Under the pieces are notes generated by a model, which made no database searches, was not told the origin of the DNA, and saw only the letters and a list, made by a program, of their open reading frames with translations. Source: Pseudogemmobacter bohemicus (GTDB taxonomy: Bacteria; Pseudomonadota; Alphaproteobacteria; Rhodobacterales; Rhodobacteraceae). From it: a DNA stretch of 64,000 bases. The DNA lies in contig NZ_QNHG01000007.1 in the NCBI RefSeq assembly GCF_003290025.1, positions 143,150-207,149 on the forward strand, read 5' to 3'. The position numbers were made by a program, and so were the translations under genes. Below are positions 3,230 to 11,108 of this stretch, piece after piece. Numbering within the stretch: the first letter of the stretch is position 1; each line of letters begins with the position of its first letter.

Positions 3230-3246
3230 TTTAAGCTCTGGTTAAG
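3230..3246 (+). promoter_or_regulatory. PmrA/QseB-like direct-repeat box 1
   Basis: TTTAAG-CTCTG-GTTAAG: two TTAAG half-sites in direct repeat with an 11-bp period, 43 bases upstream of the first L,D-transpeptidase start. This is the form bound by PmrA/BasR/QseB-type response regulators of the OmpR family (half-site yTTAAk, five-base spacer). The same 17-base pattern with one change in its core recurs at 4018. Confidence 0.65.
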
Positions 3247-3288
3247 GTATGCGGGCAAGATCCGCCCGAAATATTCCGGAGTAGTCCC

Positions 3289-4008
3289 ATGCCCAACCTG
3301 TCCGGCGCCGCCTTTCTTGCGCTGTCGCTCTTTGCCATGACCGCCTGTGTGCCGGTCGAGCCGACGCCCACCGACCCGGCCGCCGCCGCTGCGGCCGCCG
3401 AGGCAAAGGCCGAAACCGCGCGCGCCGAGGCGCAAAGGCGCATCGCCTTTGCCCCGGTCAGCGGCGATGTGGCCGAGATGTATGCCGCGCGCGAGGATGG
3501 CGGCCAGATGATCGCCGGCATCGACCCGGCAAAGATGAACCCGGATCATGTCCGCCGTGTGATCGCATTCCAGACCGAAGAGGCTCCGGGCACCATCATC
3601 GTCGATCAGGGTGCCCGCGTGCTTTACTTCGTGATGCCCGAAGGCAAGGCGCTGCGCTATGCGATCGGCGTCGGCCCGGATGCGATGCGTTTTGACGGTG
3701 GCGATGCGATCATCGACCGCAAACAGGCCTGGCCGCGCTGGATCCCCACCGCCGATATGGTGAAACGCAATCCGGGCCGCTACCTGCAATTTAAGGACGG
3801 AGTGCCGGGCGGTATCTCGAATCCGCTGGGCGCGCGCGCACTTTATATGCAGAAAGACGGGCGCGACACCTATTACCGGGTGCATGGCACCAATGACCCT
3901 TCCTCGGTGGGCCGTGCGGTTTCGGCAGGCTGTATCCGGATGCTGAACCAGGATGTGATTGATCTTCACGCCAGAGTGAGCATCGGCGCGAAAATCGTGG
4001 TGCGCTGA
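3289..4008 (+). CDS. L,D-transpeptidase, YkuD family, lipoprotein
   Basis: A 239-residue YkuD-domain enzyme that forms or exchanges L,D cross-links (or lipoprotein attachments) in peptidoglycan, acting in the periplasm. The N-terminus is a lipoprotein signal (MPNLSGAAFLALSLFAMTAC) with the lipobox Cys at residue 20. A short Ala/Glu-rich helix follows at about 28-50. The catalytic domain is C-terminal: His199 in VHGTNDPSSVG and the nucleophile Cys215 in SAGCIRM, the standard YkuD pair, followed by the conserved Asn/Asp region LNQDVIDL. Upstream is a PmrA/QseB-like box. A second YkuD gene follows 87 bases downstream with its own copy of the box, so the two are probably co-regulated rather than in one simple operon. 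Confidence 0.92.
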   Translation: MPNLSGAAFLALSLFAMTACVPVEPTPTDPAAAAAAAEAKAETARAEAQRRIAFAPVSGDVAEMYAAREDGGQMIAGIDPAKMNPDHVRRVIAFQTEEAPGTIIVDQGARVLYFVMPEGKALRYAIGVGPDAMRFDGGDAIIDRKQAWPRWIPTADMVKRNPGRYLQFKDGVPGGISNPLGARALYMQKDGRDTYYRVHGTNDPSSVGRAVSAGCIRMLNQDVIDLHARVSIGAKIVVR

Positions 4009-4017
4009 GGCTGATGT

Positions 4018-4034
4018 CTTAAGCTCCGGTTAAG
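4018..4034 (+). promoter_or_regulatory. PmrA/QseB-like direct-repeat box 2
   Basis: CTTAAG-CTCCG-GTTAAG, 62 bases upstream of the second L,D-transpeptidase start. From position 4019 on it differs from box 1 by only one base over 17. The half-sites are one helical turn apart, as expected for a head-to-tail OmpR-family dimer. Confidence 0.7.
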
Positions 4035-4095
4035 GCCGGGGAGTGATCGGGGCAATCAGGGGCGGCAAACGCCCGTGACTGTAAGGAGAGCAGAG

Positions 4096-4671
4096 ATGAG
4101 CGATACCCAAATGCGCCGCCGGGCACTGCTGACCGGTGCCGCCGCGTTTGCCACCCTGGCGATGCCGGCGGTGCTGCGCGCCGAGAGCCAGGCATTGCCG
4201 GCCTATCCGCGGCACAATTCCTCGGGTTTCCGGATGCAGGACTGGCGCGACCATTTCGACAGCCTCGGCTCGGGGGTGATCGTCGCCGATTTCACCTCAC
4301 GGGCGCTGCATTACTGGTCGGGGGACGGGACGGATTACCGCCTGTACCCCACGTCGGTGCCGTTGACCGAAGAGCTGACCAAACGCGGCTATACCGAGGT
4401 GGTCCGCAAGAAAGTCGGACCGTCCTGGACCCCCACCGCCGATATGCGCCGCCGCGACCCGTCGCTGCCGGCCTTCCTGCCGCCGGGCAAGGACAATCCG
4501 TTGGGGACACATGCGATGTATCTCAGCTGGCCCGCCTATCTGATCCATGGCACCCATGACACGAGGAAGATCGGGCGGCCGTCCTCCTCTGGCTGTATCG
4601 GGCTTTACAATGAGCATATCCAGCAGCTTTTCGCCGTGGTGCCGATAGGCACCCGCGTGCGGATCATCTGA
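4096..4671 (+). CDS. L,D-transpeptidase, YkuD family, Tat-exported
   Basis: A 191-residue periplasmic peptidoglycan L,D-transpeptidase. I chose the ATG at 4096 because AAGGAGA lies six bases upstream. A start at 4075 would add seven residues ahead of the signal. The N-terminus MSDTQMRRRALLTGAAAFAT is a twin-arginine signal, with cleavage likely after AVLRA. The catalytic pair is His151 in LIHGTHDTRKIG and Cys167 in SSGCIGL. It is a different export type from its lipoprotein neighbour, so the cell appears to place one YkuD enzyme on a membrane anchor and one as a folded soluble protein. It converges with the sensor-kinase gene, whose stop lies five bases past its own. Confidence 0.92.
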   Translation: MSDTQMRRRALLTGAAAFATLAMPAVLRAESQALPAYPRHNSSGFRMQDWRDHFDSLGSGVIVADFTSRALHYWSGDGTDYRLYPTSVPLTEELTKRGYTEVVRKKVGPSWTPTADMRRRDPSLPAFLPPGKDNPLGTHAMYLSWPAYLIHGTHDTRKIGRPSSSGCIGLYNEHIQQLFAVVPIGTRVRII

Positions 4672-4676
4672 CCGGA

Positions 4677-6050
4677 TCAGGCGGCGGGCAGGATCAGCTC
4701 TGCCCGTTCGCCACCGCCGTCCCGCGGCGAGAGGCTGAGCCTGCCGCCCATCCGTTCCATCACCGCCGCAACGATTGCAAGCCCCAGCCCGCTGCCCTGC
4801 CCCGAAGGGCTTGAGGCGCCGCGCCAGAACCGCTCGGTCACATGGGCACGGTCGGAGGCCAAAATGCCGGGGCCACGGTCCAGCACGGTGAAGCGGACCT
4901 CTTGTGTATCGCAGGCCATGCTGGCCTCGACCACAGCCCCGGGGGGCGAGGCGAGGATCGCATTTTCGATCAGATTGCGCAAAGCCGGAGCCAGCAGCAT
5001 CGCCTGGCGGGTGCGCCAGAGCCCGGTCGCAGCCCTGGTCTCAAGCCCCACACCGCGCTGCGCGGCCAGTCCGTGCAACCCCTCGGCCAGATCGGCCAGC
5101 AGCCGGGCGCCATCCTGTTCCGGCCCGCTTTCACCGCTGGTCTCGGCGGCATTCTCGGCCGCCGTCATATCCAGCAGCTGGCGCACCATGCGGTCAGTCC
5201 TGGCCACCCCGGTCGAGATCTGCGCCAAAGCGCGGTTGCGGGTCGCCTCATCCGGCGCAATCGTCGCGATTTGCGCCTGGGTCTTCAGCCCCGCCAGCGG
5301 CGTCTTCAGCTCATGCGCGGCAAAGGCGGTGAAGCTGCGTTCCCGCTCGCGGGCGGAGTTCACCCGGCGAAACAGCCCGTTCAGCGCCGAAACCATCGGG
5401 CGCAGCTCACGCGGCCCGGGCGGCAGATCAAGGGCCGAAAGATCGGTCGCCGGTCGCGCCGCCAGCCCCCGCGCCAACCGGTCAAGCGGCGCGAGACCGC
5501 GCCCCACCGCGAACCAGATCAGCGCCGCCAGCACCGGCAAAATGGCCAGAGCCGGCGCCAGCAGACCCAGAATCACGCCACGCACCAGCCGCTCGCGCAT
5601 CGAAAGCGCATCGCCGACCATCACGCGGACCCCCAGTTCGGTGTCGATATGGGAATAGACCCGCCAGGTCTCTCCCTCGACCTCGCGTTCGGAAAACCCG
5701 GCCGCATCATCGGCCAGCCGCGCCCTGGGCGCCCCGTCGGATTCGCTTTTCAGCCGGCCGTCAAAGCCCCAGACCTGACAGATCAGCTCATGCGAATAGC
5801 CCTCGGGGCCGCCTTCGGGCAGGATATGCGGCCGGGGATGCGCCAGTTTCTCCACCGCCTCGCCGACCACACCGCCATTCCGCGCAATCAGCGAGGCCAC
5901 CATATGTGCGGATTCCTGCAGCCGGCGGTCCAGCACATGATTGACCTCCATTCGGGTCGAATACTGGATCCAGATCACGGCCGAGAGCCAGACCACCCCG
6001 GTCGCCGCCATCAGGATCAGGAAAAGCCGCATCCGGATCGAGGACATCAC
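4677..6050 (-). CDS. Sensor histidine kinase, QseC/PmrB/TctE-like
   Basis: A 457-residue membrane kinase. A first transmembrane segment near residues 9-28 and a second near 160-180 flank a periplasmic sensor of about 130 residues, followed by a HAMP-like linker (GRGLAPLDRLARGLAAR). The H-box is FAAHELKTPLAGLKTQ (phospho-His near residue 245). The ATPase part shows the N-box LRNLIENAILASPPG, G1 DRGPGI and G2 GSGLGLAI. The gene overlaps the end of the response-regulator gene by four bases (ATGA), so the pair is translationally coupled. Signals sensed by QseC/PmrB relatives include metal ions, acid and cationic peptides; which applies here cannot be seen. The neighbouring cell-wall genes suggest an envelope-stress role. 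Confidence 0.9.
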   Translation of the reverse strand: MMSSIRMRLFLILMAATGVVWLSAVIWIQYSTRMEVNHVLDRRLQESAHMVASLIARNGGVVGEAVEKLAHPRPHILPEGGPEGYSHELICQVWGFDGRLKSESDGAPRARLADDAAGFSEREVEGETWRVYSHIDTELGVRVMVGDALSMRERLVRGVILGLLAPALAILPVLAALIWFAVGRGLAPLDRLARGLAARPATDLSALDLPPGPRELRPMVSALNGLFRRVNSARERERSFTAFAAHELKTPLAGLKTQAQIATIAPDEATRNRALAQISTGVARTDRMVRQLLDMTAAENAAETSGESGPEQDGARLLADLAEGLHGLAAQRGVGLETRAATGLWRTRQAMLLAPALRNLIENAILASPPGAVVEASMACDTQEVRFTVLDRGPGILASDRAHVTERFWRGASSPSGQGSGLGLAIVAAVMERMGGRLSLSPRDGGGERAELILPAA

Positions 6051-6730
6051 GCCTGCCCCCCGGGCGATGTCCCGGGTGCCAGCCGGTAGCCCGCGCCCCG
6101 CACCGTCTCGATGAAATCGGGGCCGAGCTTTGCGCGGAGTTTGTGGATATGCACTTCGACCGTGTTCGAGCCGACCTCTTCCTGCCAGCCATAAAGCCGG
6201 TCCTCAAGGAAAGCCTTGCCGAGGATCGCGCCGGGGCGCTCCATCAGGGCCTGGATCAGGGTGAATTCGCGGTTCGGAAAGACCACTTCGCGCCCGCCGA
6301 TCGTGCCGCGCATCCGCGCCGGGTCGAGCGTCAGCCCGTTCCAGCTGAGCACGCCTTCGGCCCGGCCCTGGCGGCGCCTGAGGATCGCGCGCAGCCGTGC
6401 CGCCAGCTCGTCCAGCTCGAACGGTTTGCCGAGATAATCATCCGCCCCGGCATCAAGCCCCGCGACCTTGTCTTCCAGCCGGTCGCGGGCGGTCAGCAAA
6501 AGGACCGGCAGGTCGCTTTCCTCTGCCCGCATCTCGCGCAACAGCCCCAGCCCCGAGCCATCGGGCAGCATCAGGTCCAGTACCATCGCCTCGAAACTGC
6601 CCGCCGCCAGCGCCACACGGGCATCAGAAACCGAGCCCACCGCATCGGGCGAGAATCCGGCCAGCCGCAGCCCGACGCTGAGCCCGTCGCGCAAAAGGTC
6701 GTCATCCTCGACAATCAGGATCCGCATCAC
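6047..6730 (-). CDS. Response regulator, OmpR family (QseB/PmrA-like)
   Basis: A 227-residue regulator with an N-terminal receiver (acidic pocket VEDDD, phospho-Asp in VLDLMLPDGSG, conserved Lys in GKPFELDELA) and a C-terminal winged helix (LTLDPARMRG to VEVHIHKLRAKLG). The C-terminal VRGAGYRLAPG is typical of the QseB/PmrA/TctD group. It is the first gene of a two-gene operon with the kinase. A direct-repeat box lies 38 bases upstream of its start at 6768-6784, consistent with autoregulation. The same box type lies before both L,D-transpeptidase genes about 2-3 kb away, which makes those genes likely direct targets. Confidence 0.92.
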   Translation of the reverse strand: MMRILIVEDDDLLRDGLSVGLRLAGFSPDAVGSVSDARVALAAGSFEAMVLDLMLPDGSGLGLLREMRAEESDLPVLLLTARDRLEDKVAGLDAGADDYLGKPFELDELAARLRAILRRRQGRAEGVLSWNGLTLDPARMRGTIGGREVVFPNREFTLIQALMERPGAILGKAFLEDRLYGWQEEVGSNTVEVHIHKLRAKLGPDFIETVRGAGYRLAPGTSPGGQA

Positions 6731-6767
6731 ATCCCCGCATTTCCACCGGTGGCAATGCCCGGCCCGG

Positions 6768-6784
6768 ACTAAGCCATATTTAAG
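6768..6784 (+). promoter_or_regulatory. PmrA/QseB-like direct-repeat box 3
   Basis: ACTAAG-CCATA-TTTAAG, same spacing as boxes 1 and 2 with one mismatch in the first half-site. It lies in the 76-base gap between kup and the response-regulator gene. Its orientation is opposite to that gene, so it is a weaker call than the other two. Confidence 0.5.
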
Positions 6785-8910: not shown

Positions 8911-10422
8911 ATGGAGCCTGTGTTCGTTACCCCTCCCGGCCCGCGTCCGGCCGGCCCCTTGTCAAAGCGTCCGGGCCAGATCCTGGCGGCGGCGCTGGTG
9001 CTGATCCTGGTGACGGCGATTGTGGTGCCCTCGCGCGGCTGGATGAGCGAGATCATCGCGCTTTTGCTTCTCCTCATGGCGGTGCTGGTCAATGCGGCGG
9101 CCTTTGGCTTCTGGTCCGGGTTTGGATCGGCGCTGGTGGCGCTGGCGGTGTTCAACTTCTTCTTCATCGAGCCGCATTTCAGCCTGGTGGCGGCACGGCC
9201 GCAGGATATGGTCGTGCTGCTGGCCTTCCTTGCAGCGGCGGGGCTGACCGGGTTTCTCGCCGGGCGGATGCGCGAACAGGTGGACAGCGCGCGCGACCGG
9301 GCACTGGTGCTTGAGGTGCTGTCCTCGGCCAGCGGCGCACTTTCCCGCGCGACCAGTGAAGAGCAGATCCTGGAAGCCGTGATCCGCCATATCGCCACGC
9401 TGTCGGAGGCGCCGGTGGCAGCGTTGAGCCGCAATTCCGACGGGTTGCGCCCGATCCCCGGCAGCCTGGTGCCGCGCCCGGCCGATCTGCAGGCGGCGGA
9501 ACAGGCGCTGGCCCGCGGCCGGGTCGAGATCGCCATCGCCGATGGCTGGACCGGCTCGCATCTGACCTTCCATCCGCTGCCCCTCGGCACCGGGGCCAGC
9601 CATGCGATCGGCCATCGCCTGCCCGAGGCGGTGGACCGCGACAGCGTCTACCGCGAGCAGGCCATCGACACCGTGCTGCACCAGGCAGAGGCGGCGCTGG
9701 AGCGGCTGGAGCTGGGCCGAAAGGCCAACACGGAACGCGAGATTTCGGACCGCCAGGCGCTGCGGGCGGCACTGCTTTCCTCGCTGTCGCATGATCTGCG
9801 CACACCGCTGGCAACCATTCTGGGCTCGGTCACCACCTTGCGCGATCTGCGGGACGGCCTGCCCCCCGAGGCGCAGGAGGACCTGCTGGGCGCCATTTCC
9901 GAAGAGGCAGGCCGCCTCGCGCGCTATGTCGAAAACCTGTTGCAGATGACGCGGCTGGTGGCGGGGTCCTCGGTCACGCTTCACCCGGTGGCGCCCGGCG
10001 ATTGCGCCCGCGCCGCTGTCAGCCGGGCGCTGCGGGCTTTTCCCGATGCCAAGATCAGCGCCGATCTGCCCGAACTGCCACTGGTCATGGCCGAGGCGGG
10101 GCTGGTCGAACAGGTGATCTTCAGCCTGATCGAAAACGCGCGGCACTATGCGCCCGGGCCGATCCTCGTCACCGGCGCCACCGATGGCGACCTGATCCGG
10201 CTTGAGGTGCAGGATCAGGGGCAGGGTCTGCCCGCGCCGGTCACCCAATGGCTTGCCACCCCCGACCTGACCCGGGGCGAAGAGAAAAGCGGTCTCGGCC
10301 TGCCGATCTGCAAGGGGATCGCGCAGCTTCTGGGCGGGCGGCTTGAGGCTGTGGCCGGCCCCGGCGCGCGGCTGGCGCTGATCCTCCCCACCGCGCAATC
10401 CGCCGGGGTGCAGACCATATGA
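8911..10422 (+). CDS. KdpD-like sensor histidine kinase lacking the N-terminal KdpD/Usp domains
   Basis: A 503-residue kinase that corresponds to the C-terminal part of KdpD. It starts with a DUF4118-type four-helix membrane domain (about residues 20-115) containing the characteristic FNFFFIEPHFSLV. A GAF-like region follows at about 140-250, then the H-box SSLSHDLRTPLATILGS (His294), the N-box VIFSLIENARHYAPG and the G-box KSGLGLPICKGIAQLLGG. Canonical KdpD is near 900 residues and begins with a Walker-containing KdpD domain and a Usp domain; neither is present upstream. The stop overlaps the next gene, kdpE-like, by four bases. No kdpFABC genes are in the window, so the pair probably controls another potassium or envelope function, with kup next door as the obvious candidate. 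Confidence 0.85.
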   Translation: MEPVFVTPPGPRPAGPLSKRPGQILAAALVLILVTAIVVPSRGWMSEIIALLLLLMAVLVNAAAFGFWSGFGSALVALAVFNFFFIEPHFSLVAARPQDMVVLLAFLAAAGLTGFLAGRMREQVDSARDRALVLEVLSSASGALSRATSEEQILEAVIRHIATLSEAPVAALSRNSDGLRPIPGSLVPRPADLQAAEQALARGRVEIAIADGWTGSHLTFHPLPLGTGASHAIGHRLPEAVDRDSVYREQAIDTVLHQAEAALERLELGRKANTEREISDRQALRAALLSSLSHDLRTPLATILGSVTTLRDLRDGLPPEAQEDLLGAISEEAGRLARYVENLLQMTRLVAGSSVTLHPVAPGDCARAAVSRALRAFPDAKISADLPELPLVMAEAGLVEQVIFSLIENARHYAPGPILVTGATDGDLIRLEVQDQGQGLPAPVTQWLATPDLTRGEEKSGLGLPICKGIAQLLGGRLEAVAGPGARLALILPTAQSAGVQTI

Positions 10423-11108
10423 GCGCGCGCCAGCTGATCCTCGTCGTCGATGATGAGCCGCAGATCCAGCGCTTCCTCGTCCATGCGCTGAATGCCTCGG
10501 GCTATGATACCGTGCTGGCCTCGACCGGCGCCGGGGCGCTGGAGGCCGTCGCGCAGCACAGGCCCGATCTGATGGTGCTGGATCTGGGGCTGCCGGATAT
10601 GAACGGCAAAACCGTTATCGAAAAGCTGCGGGCGGATACGGACCTGCCGGTGATCGTGCTGTCCGCCCATGACCAGGAGATGGAGAAGATCCTGGCGCTG
10701 GATCTCGGCGCCAATGATTTCGTGGCCAAGCCCTTCGCCATCGGCGAATTGCTGGCGCGGCTCAGGGTCTCGTTGCGGCCAAAGCGCGGGGCAGGAGCGC
10801 CGGGCCTTTTGCGCAGCGGCAATCTGACGCTTTCACGCGATCTGCGCGAGGTCACCATCGCCGGCGAGACACTGAAACTGACCCCCAAGGAATTCGACCT
10901 GCTGCTGGCCTTGCTGGAACAGCCCGACCGGATCGTGACCCATCGCCAGCTTTTGCTGCATGTCTGGGGACCGGCCCATGTCGAGGATATCGTCTATCTT
11001 CGGGTATTTATCGGGCAGCTGCGGCAAAAGCTGGAAGCGGCGGGCTTTGATGCCAGCGCGATCCGGACCGAGGCCGGCATCGGCTATCGCTGGATCAGCC
11101 CGGACTGA
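10419..11108 (+). CDS. Response regulator, KdpE-like (OmpR family)
   Basis: A 229-residue regulator. The receiver has the acidic pair in LVVDDEPQIQRFL, phospho-Asp in MVLDLGLPDMNG, and the Lys in VAKPFAIGELLARLR. The winged helix (LTPKEFDLLLALLEQPDRIV to YLRVFIGQLRQKLE) ends in TEAGIGYRW, which matches KdpE closely (LRQKLE...P...TETGIGYR). It overlaps the kinase gene by four bases and is surely its partner. No typical KdpE target genes are adjacent downstream; the next genes encode an ABC exporter after a 200-base gap in which I find no convincing site. Confidence 0.88.
   Translation: MSARQLILVVDDEPQIQRFLVHALNASGYDTVLASTGAGALEAVAQHRPDLMVLDLGLPDMNGKTVIEKLRADTDLPVIVLSAHDQEMEKILALDLGANDFVAKPFAIGELLARLRVSLRPKRGAGAPGLLRSGNLTLSRDLREVTIAGETLKLTPKEFDLLLALLEQPDRIVTHRQLLLHVWGPAHVEDIVYLRVFIGQLRQKLEAAGFDASAIRTEAGIGYRWISPD

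Follow-up and report, generated by a model that had tools for sequence, protein, structure and literature searches.

The PmrA/PmrB (BasR/BasS) two-component system controls the genes of lipid A modification. A related pair, consisting of an OmpR-family response regulator and a sensor histidine kinase, was analysed here in a 64,000-nucleotide stretch of the Pseudogemmobacter bohemicus genome (contig NZ_QNHG01000007.1, positions 143,150 to 207,149; further called the window), in which two L,D-transpeptidase genes of the YkuD family (YkuD1 and YkuD2) and the regulator gene itself are preceded by direct-repeat boxes. The regulator has the PmrA fold and was closest to PmrA/BasR among the solved structures (8jo2/4s04, E 1e-51), with residues 1–218 aligned without gaps; the alignment to Klebsiella PmrA was likewise ungapped over 218 residues. 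The available text of PMC4660055 and PMC3973317 gives the PmrA box as CTTAAG-N5-XTTAAT and names eight DNA-contact residues of PmrA, five of which (N188, V192, H193, H195 and R210) were identical in the window regulator, while T187 was replaced by Ser, N196 by Lys and E199 by Ala. The differences from PmrA/PmrB concerned the targets, which are transpeptidases and thiol reductases in the present case, and the score against the PmrA equivalog, which stayed below the cut-off.

The second-best match of the regulator was QseB of the QseB/QseC (PreA/PreB) system, and the sensor part of the kinase was homologous to that of QseC (structure 2kse, E 2.9e-14). Against the NCBIfam equivalog models the regulator reached 229.3 bits with PmrA (cut-off 330) and 210.2 bits with QseB (cut-off 345), and the kinase 210.3 bits with QseC (cut-off 475) and 137.3 bits with PmrB (cut-off 314), so that both proteins should be regarded as relatives, not members, of the PmrA/QseB and QseC equivalogs. 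A Foldseek search with the predicted sensor yielded no useful fold match, the best hits being integrative models at E 4e-4, and therefore only the sequence homology to QseC was used for this domain. The two sensors differ at one position, where QseC has a phenylalanine and the kinase of the window has a cysteine, Cys91.

On the target side, the nearest precedent is the protection of transpeptidases in E. coli, where DsbG, according to the available text of PMC3526765, interacts with transpeptidases that depend on a single essential cysteine and shields them from sulfenylation. The partnership of DsbD and a DsbG/DsbA-type protein with YkuD enzymes is common to both cases, as far as the same text describes it; what differs is that here the partners share a DNA box and the regulator of a two-component system, and that the DsbA-like proteins are not DsbG, with the exception of L308:15078-15881. 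Compared with the single-cysteine clients of DsbG, transpeptidase 2 of the window has one cysteine (Cys167, in SSGCIG), and transpeptidase 1 has one (Cys215, in the catalytic motif SAGCIR) besides Cys20, which lies in a lipobox-like stretch after ...AMTA. A cluster that joins a DsbD-type reductase to DsbA-like and TlpA-like proteins is also reported for the Scs proteins ScsB and ScsC in Salmonella, Proteus and Caulobacter, whereas the proteins found here, at 460 and 485 bits, exceeded the cut-off of 330 of the DsbD subfamily model. Finally, ThsS/ThsR of Shewanella is a thiosulfate-sensing two-component system controlling a thiosulfate reductase (available text of PMC5408782), and by this description may share with the present system the response to a sulfur compound. 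All the parts are of known kinds, while the combination of a cysteine sensor, a PmrA-type box and a regulon of transpeptidases and thiol reductases was not found in searches of the open-access literature.

The results are best explained by a PmrA/QseB-like system, in which the regulator would bind the box and switch on the L,D-transpeptidases, in relatives together with DsbD, DsbA and TlpA, proteins that would hold periplasmic cysteines in the reduced state, and in which the kinase would sense thiol-modifying stress through one periplasmic cysteine; the probability of this reading is put at roughly 0.6. The sequences themselves show the box with its constant spacing, conserved upstream of the regulator gene across the clade, and the invariant Cys91. 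With five of the eight PmrA contact residues kept, binding of the box by the regulator is likely, and presumably binding activates the genes, Cys91 acts as the switch and the system serves to reduce or replace the cysteine-catalysed transpeptidases.

Whether the box persists upstream of the regulator gene was examined in orthologs from 60 relatives, from 390 genomes of the order, 30 of which had a regulator match at E 1e-62 or better, and from named genomes, which gave at least 24 regulator matches at 57% identity or higher among the matches listed and belong to genera of Rhodobacterales, Rhizobiales and Sphingomonadales. The 59 distinct orthologs, which include the window itself and one likely duplicate genome pair (L215/L232), formed a single clade (59/59, support 0.94); the sets are not phylogenetically independent. 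A perfect core was present within 150 bp 5' of the regulator gene in 46 of the 59 orthologs and a core with at most one mismatch in 51, in contrast to 0 and 3 of 77 paralogs (Fisher p 9e-25, ignoring relatedness), and none of the other spacers from 0 to 16 gave a perfect core upstream of the 59 orthologs. The regulator's own box is thus conserved beside this kinase/regulator pair in Alphaproteobacteria.

The same box marked a larger set of genes when whole genomes were searched. In the 60-relative set, seven genomes with a regulator of at least 65% identity contained 32 perfect YTTAAG-N5-BTTAAG sites, 29 of which preceded regulator, YkuD, DsbA, DsbD or TlpA-like genes; genome G047, with a regulator of 58%, had only boxes with one mismatch, and six of seven genomes from the same genus but without a close regulator lacked perfect sites, the seventh being G006. 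In 28 further regulator-bearing genomes 84 perfect cores were found, 35 of them fully symmetric. Regulator, YkuD or Dsb genes followed 50 of the 84 cores and 30 of the 35 symmetric sites, and four more cores preceded genes resembling those of cbb3 oxidase or SoxB. At least one target site was present in 26 of the 28 genomes, and the two exceptions (G348 and G303) had boxes with one mismatch. On the other hand, 28 regulator-less genomes, not matched by genus, gave 55 cores with a single symmetric one among them, and none of the 30 sites examined preceded a regulator, YkuD or Dsb gene. Boxes at unlinked transpeptidase and Dsb genes are, judging from the motif and the gene labels, confined to regulator-bearing genomes among those examined.

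Local conservation of DNA as the sole cause of the boxes was ruled out, because 18 of the 50 target sites lay on a different contig from the regulator or over 8 kb away from it and because other spacers gave no perfect cores. The possibility that the box belongs to the transpeptidase rather than to the regulator was rejected as well, since the best YkuD2 homolog carried a box in all 7 regulator-bearing genomes and in none of the 23 that lack the regulator, the exception being a second YkuD2 of G008. The orientation of the repeats was also consistent: out of 127 perfect cores in 83 loci, 81 were symmetric and 11 unassignable, and the remaining 35, asymmetric and flanked by a labelled gene on just one side, all had their TTAAG repeats on the strand of that gene. 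An original prediction, made from the window alone, had proposed an alphaproteobacterial regulon, and by these motif counts the proposal appears to hold far beyond the window, in several orders and at unlinked boxed targets; it had also named the lack of boxes at orthologous transpeptidases as an observation that would speak against it, and the opposite was found. Another sequence, CTTAAGGAACCGTTAAG, was seen beside transposase-like open reading frames (ORFs) in L150 (G012:C6), L151 (G028:C1) and L152 (G023:C13) and is probably carried by an insertion element and not a part of the regulon.

The typical layout in the relatives was an operon dsbD - tlpA-like - ykuD1 - dsbA running divergently from the regulator, with ykuD2 often behind its own box; in locus L214 of genome G112 every unit of this layout had a box. 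The candidate targets included, apart from the transpeptidases, the periplasmic thiol reductases DsbD, DsbA-like and TlpA-like, and DsbG once. Among 71 ortholog loci, 59 had a transpeptidase gene close to the regulator, 46 a thiol reductase gene and 41 the two together, while each of these counts was 0 in 56 paralog loci. Annotated examples are plasmid pAMI5 of Paracoccus aminophilus JCM 7686, on which genes for DsbA, DsbD, TlpA, a transpeptidase, the regulator and the kinase are all present, and plasmid 3 of Pseudorhizobium flavum, where a perfect box precedes the gene of a true DsbG (336 bits against a cut-off of 124). No arn or eptA gene of lipid A modification was annotated in 13 plasmid neighbourhoods, taken from 57 plasmid records for their annotated regulator, no search aimed at such homologs having been made.

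In the window itself (Table 1), the three boxes of the original prediction were confirmed in position and letters, and their consensus and 5-bp spacer match those of the PmrA box (as defined in the available text of PMC3973317). The pattern TTAAG-N6-TTAAG with at most one mismatch had four matches at three places in the 64 kb, compared to 0.23 expected from shuffled sequences, while its exact form occurred only twice in the whole 5.6-Mb genome, both times 5' of the YkuD genes (reversed control pattern, 13). With one mismatch allowed, YTTAAG-N5-KTTAAG gave 8 matches at 7 places of the genome against 82 for the control, and none of the five other places adjoins a labelled regulon gene. A random abundance of the box, which had been named as another finding that would contradict the prediction, was not observed, perfect cores being as rare as two in this genome, and a chance origin was ruled out by the counts in the window, in the genome, upstream of the orthologs and across the genomes. 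The position of box 1 was also boxed in the sister genomes G001, G007, G012 and G008. Box 3 is indeed present 5' of the regulator gene but is weaker than had been claimed, its TTAAG core being off by one base and its repeats running opposite to the gene. In three sister species (G001, G007 and G012) the aligned position is an intact CTTAAG-N5-CTTAAG, from which box 3 differs by 4 substitutions in 17 bases, 3 of them within the half-sites; by this alignment, box 3 is a decayed copy of a putative autoregulatory site that is perfect in the sister species.

Table 1. Boxes, genes and the sensor cysteine of the regulator locus in the window (coordinates of the window, forward strand)
Feature	Coordinates	Strand	Description
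Box 1	3230-3246	+	TTTAAG-CTCTG-GTTAAG; 42 bp 5' of ATG 3289 (YkuD1); repeats on the strand of the gene
YkuD L,D-transpeptidase 1	3289..4008	+	239 aa; Pfam YkuD 60.4 bits (cut-off 23.4)
Box 2	4018-4034	+	CTTAAG-CTCCG-GTTAAG; 61 bp 5' of ATG 4096 (YkuD2); repeats on the strand of the gene
YkuD L,D-transpeptidase 2	4096..4671	+	191 aa; Pfam YkuD 68.9 bits
Sensor histidine kinase, QseC-like	4677..6050	-	457 aa; 2CSK_N sensor, HisKA, HATPase
Cys91 codon	5778..5780	-	Sole cysteine of the kinase periplasmic part, motif CQ[IV]W
OmpR-family response regulator, PmrA/QseB type	6047..6727	-	226 aa; Pfam Response_reg and Trans_reg_C
Box 3	6768-6784	.	ACTAAG-CCATA-TTTAAG; 40 bp 5' of ATG 6727 (regulator, minus strand); repeats on the opposite strand

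Both transpeptidases have the YkuD domain above the Pfam cut-off and the catalytic cysteine motif. Their predicted export routes, a lipoprotein for transpeptidase 1 and Tat for transpeptidase 2, fit the N-termini as read from the sequence (the lipobox-like stretch in the former and RRR in ...MRRRALLTG in the latter), in agreement with what had been suggested. YkuD2 of the window and its orthologs had Gly instead of the usual Arg after GC[IV], that is GCIG or GCVG in 24 of 24 readable orthologs. The last 150 residues contained only one cysteine in 54 of 57 YkuD1-type orthologs and in 12 of 24 YkuD2 domains. In the window species the recognised candidate regulon comprises both transpeptidases, with the regulator itself as a weak third member, because the DsbD query that recovered the copies of sister species at 96–100% found no relative in this genome. 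On contig C5 of genome G000 three equally scoring blocks of YkuD2-like, YkuD1-like and DsbA-like genes were present at about 84.5–86.9 (L148), 179.8–182.2 and 300.9–303.2 kb, with no box (at most one mismatch) in the copy that was read, and might reflect a repeated segment, a multimeric plasmid or an artefact of the assembly. In the same genome an unboxed DsbA-like gene adjoins a YkuD gene (G000:C1:1177506-1178880, L220), so that such pairing occurs outside the regulon too. On the other side of the regulator, at 8911-11108 of the window, a KdpD/KdpE-like pair with a DUF4118 kinase is divergent from a Kup potassium transporter.

The kinase was compared in 68 full-length orthologs from the 71 loci, the three loci without a full-length kinase beside the regulator being left out. 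A cysteine occupied the position of Cys91 in all 68, all 68 had exactly one cysteine at about residues 25–165, and the motif CQ[IVLA]W was present in 67. In contrast, none of the 29 paralog kinases had a cysteine in this column, where Phe or Tyr was found in 20, another residue in 6 and a gap in 3 (one of these proteins was counted from two loci, and some of the alignments are loose); QseC (2kse) has a Phe at this position. In the AlphaFold2 model (mean pLDDT 83) Cys91 is predicted to lie in the first beta strand of the periplasmic fold. The kinase gene was split into two ORFs in L042 (G012), L311 (Bradyrhizobium betae) and L319 (Rhizobium sp. X9), either by decay or by sequencing error.

The proposed mechanism would start with the modification of Cys91 by a thiol-reactive agent, upon which the kinase would phosphorylate the regulator, and the regulator would in turn activate DsbD for the import of reductant, the TlpA-like, DsbA-like or DsbG reductants of the periplasm and the synthesis of new transpeptidases. 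A more specific version is offered tentatively, as a possibility that falls somewhat short of even odds: Cys91, in place of the Phe of QseC, might stand in for the catalytic cysteines of the wall enzymes and be sacrificed in their place, so that reactive sulfur or another thiol poison would bring about fresh transpeptidases together with repair by DsbD, DsbA and TlpA.

As to the chemical signal, sulfur genes were counted near the regulator with a list comprising persulfide dioxygenase/sulfur transferase (Blh), BigR, YeeE/YedE, TauE/SafE, SulP and SoxB-like proteins, the 13 reference loci being excluded. They were present near 17 of 58 ortholog loci in comparison with 5 of 56 paralog loci (p 0.008), and a stricter count (40% identity, shorter list) gave 14 of 58 versus 1 of 56. 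In an unlabelled scan covering 113 of 162 neighbour ORFs the commonest families were metallo-beta-lactamase (8) and Blh (7), and no copper family was among the 25 commonest ones listed. A box was located 5' of SoxB-like genes in L212 and L316, the latter also with a boxed SoxA/TsdA-type cytochrome. Reactive sulfur species (sulfite, thiosulfate products, persulfide) are the likeliest signal, since the neighbourhood repeatedly includes genes for persulfide dioxygenase, YeeE/YedE, TauE/SafE and SoxB-like proteins, the last of which are boxed in two records. A DsrE-like label for a boxed ORF in L244 found confirmation in neither Pfam nor NCBIfam and was dropped.

Several observations weigh against a box-controlled thiol-stress response or limit its extent. 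Apart from the decay and reversed orientation of box 3 in the window, 8 of the 59 orthologs lacked a box, one mismatch being allowed, within 150 bp upstream of the regulator. In L197, L198 and L210 the box preceded instead the previous gene of the same operon (with one mismatch in L197), in L216 it was somewhat farther upstream, and L194, L196, L200 and L211 had no box near the regulator but a perfect YkuD2 box elsewhere in genomes G215, G097, G414 and G152. Neither a transpeptidase nor a thiol reductase was encoded nearby at 7 of the 71 loci, the DsbA-like genes of the window genome were unboxed in the stretches read around them (L148 and L149 among these), and 30 of the 84 perfect cores in regulator-bearing genomes preceded none of the labelled genes. 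Genome G006, whose best regulator match was 46%, had six sites, three of which were examined and two of these preceded DsbA and DsbD genes, and in G008 the second YkuD2 (79%) had no box in the surrounding 12 kb. Two or three cysteines were present in the last 150 residues of 12 of the 24 YkuD2 orthologs, so that some of the targets are not single-cysteine enzymes. With regard to sulfur, its genes were absent at 41 of the 58 loci, the controls came from other taxa, and the SoxB-like matches (294 and 315 bits) were under the SoxB cut-off of 550. The boxed DsbA and DsbD genes of G006 (L144, G006:C3:80000-96000) may be explained by another regulator, by a loss or by a missing contig.

An unlikely but not negligible alternative is a copper sensor, with the kinase binding periplasmic copper or being modified by it and the regulon replacing and reducing the copper-poisoned cysteine enzymes, similarly to the Scs proteins of enterobacteria and Caulobacter. 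Copper reportedly inhibits L,D-transpeptidases, going by the title of a 2018 paper by Peters et al., and the ScsB/ScsC thiol proteins are linked to copper. The four boxes before cbb3-oxidase-like or SoxB-like genes would fit this explanation, as would a perfect box in Bradyrhizobium elkanii WSM2783 (L235, box 13832) before a DoxX protein that barely passed the HvfX model of copper-RiPP (ribosomally synthesized and post-translationally modified peptide) maturation (80.3 versus 80 bits), but the commonest neighbour families listed included sulfur families and none of copper.

A general envelope stress response, which was the view of the original prediction and would here mean that a PmrA/QseB relative meets cationic or lipid-A stress by more L,D cross-linking while Dsb proteins merely fold those of the envelope, is rather improbable. 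The proximity of the regulator and kinase to PmrA/QseB and QseC/PmrB and the transpeptidase targets boxed in the window speak in its favor, and the part of the claim that placed boxes before the transpeptidases stands. General remodelling of peptidoglycan finds no support as the theme of the regulon, given that across the relatives DsbD, DsbA and TlpA genes were boxed as regularly as the transpeptidases and that the sensor gained an invariant, clade-specific cysteine absent in QseC; for the same reasons, thiol protection fits better. Still less probable is a metabolic regulator of sulfur oxidation for which thiosulfate or sulfite would be a substrate to be sensed and whose thiol reductases would serve Sox-type carriers instead of transpeptidases, as transpeptidases accompany the system more constantly (at 59 of 71 loci) than SoxB-like genes, labelled in 5 of 71, despite the boxed SoxB-like genes and cytochrome mentioned above and a DoxD/DoxA gene nearby in Martelella.

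If the reading of a regulator-controlled thiol-stress response is true, Alphaproteobacteria would possess a dedicated regulatory system that keeps their periplasmic cysteine enzymes alive, and this would explain why an L,D-transpeptidase and a Dsb-type reductase share one operon in many of these genomes. Cys91 and one DNA box would then provide handles for direct tests, and the system would demonstrate that a two-component pair of the PmrA/QseB type can swap its signal and its targets and yet retain its DNA box. Should the stand-in role of Cys91 also prove true, the system would represent a dedicated alphaproteobacterial response to periplasmic thiol stress, present on chromosomes as well as on plasmids, which couples redox or sulfur chemistry to the cross-linking of the cell wall.

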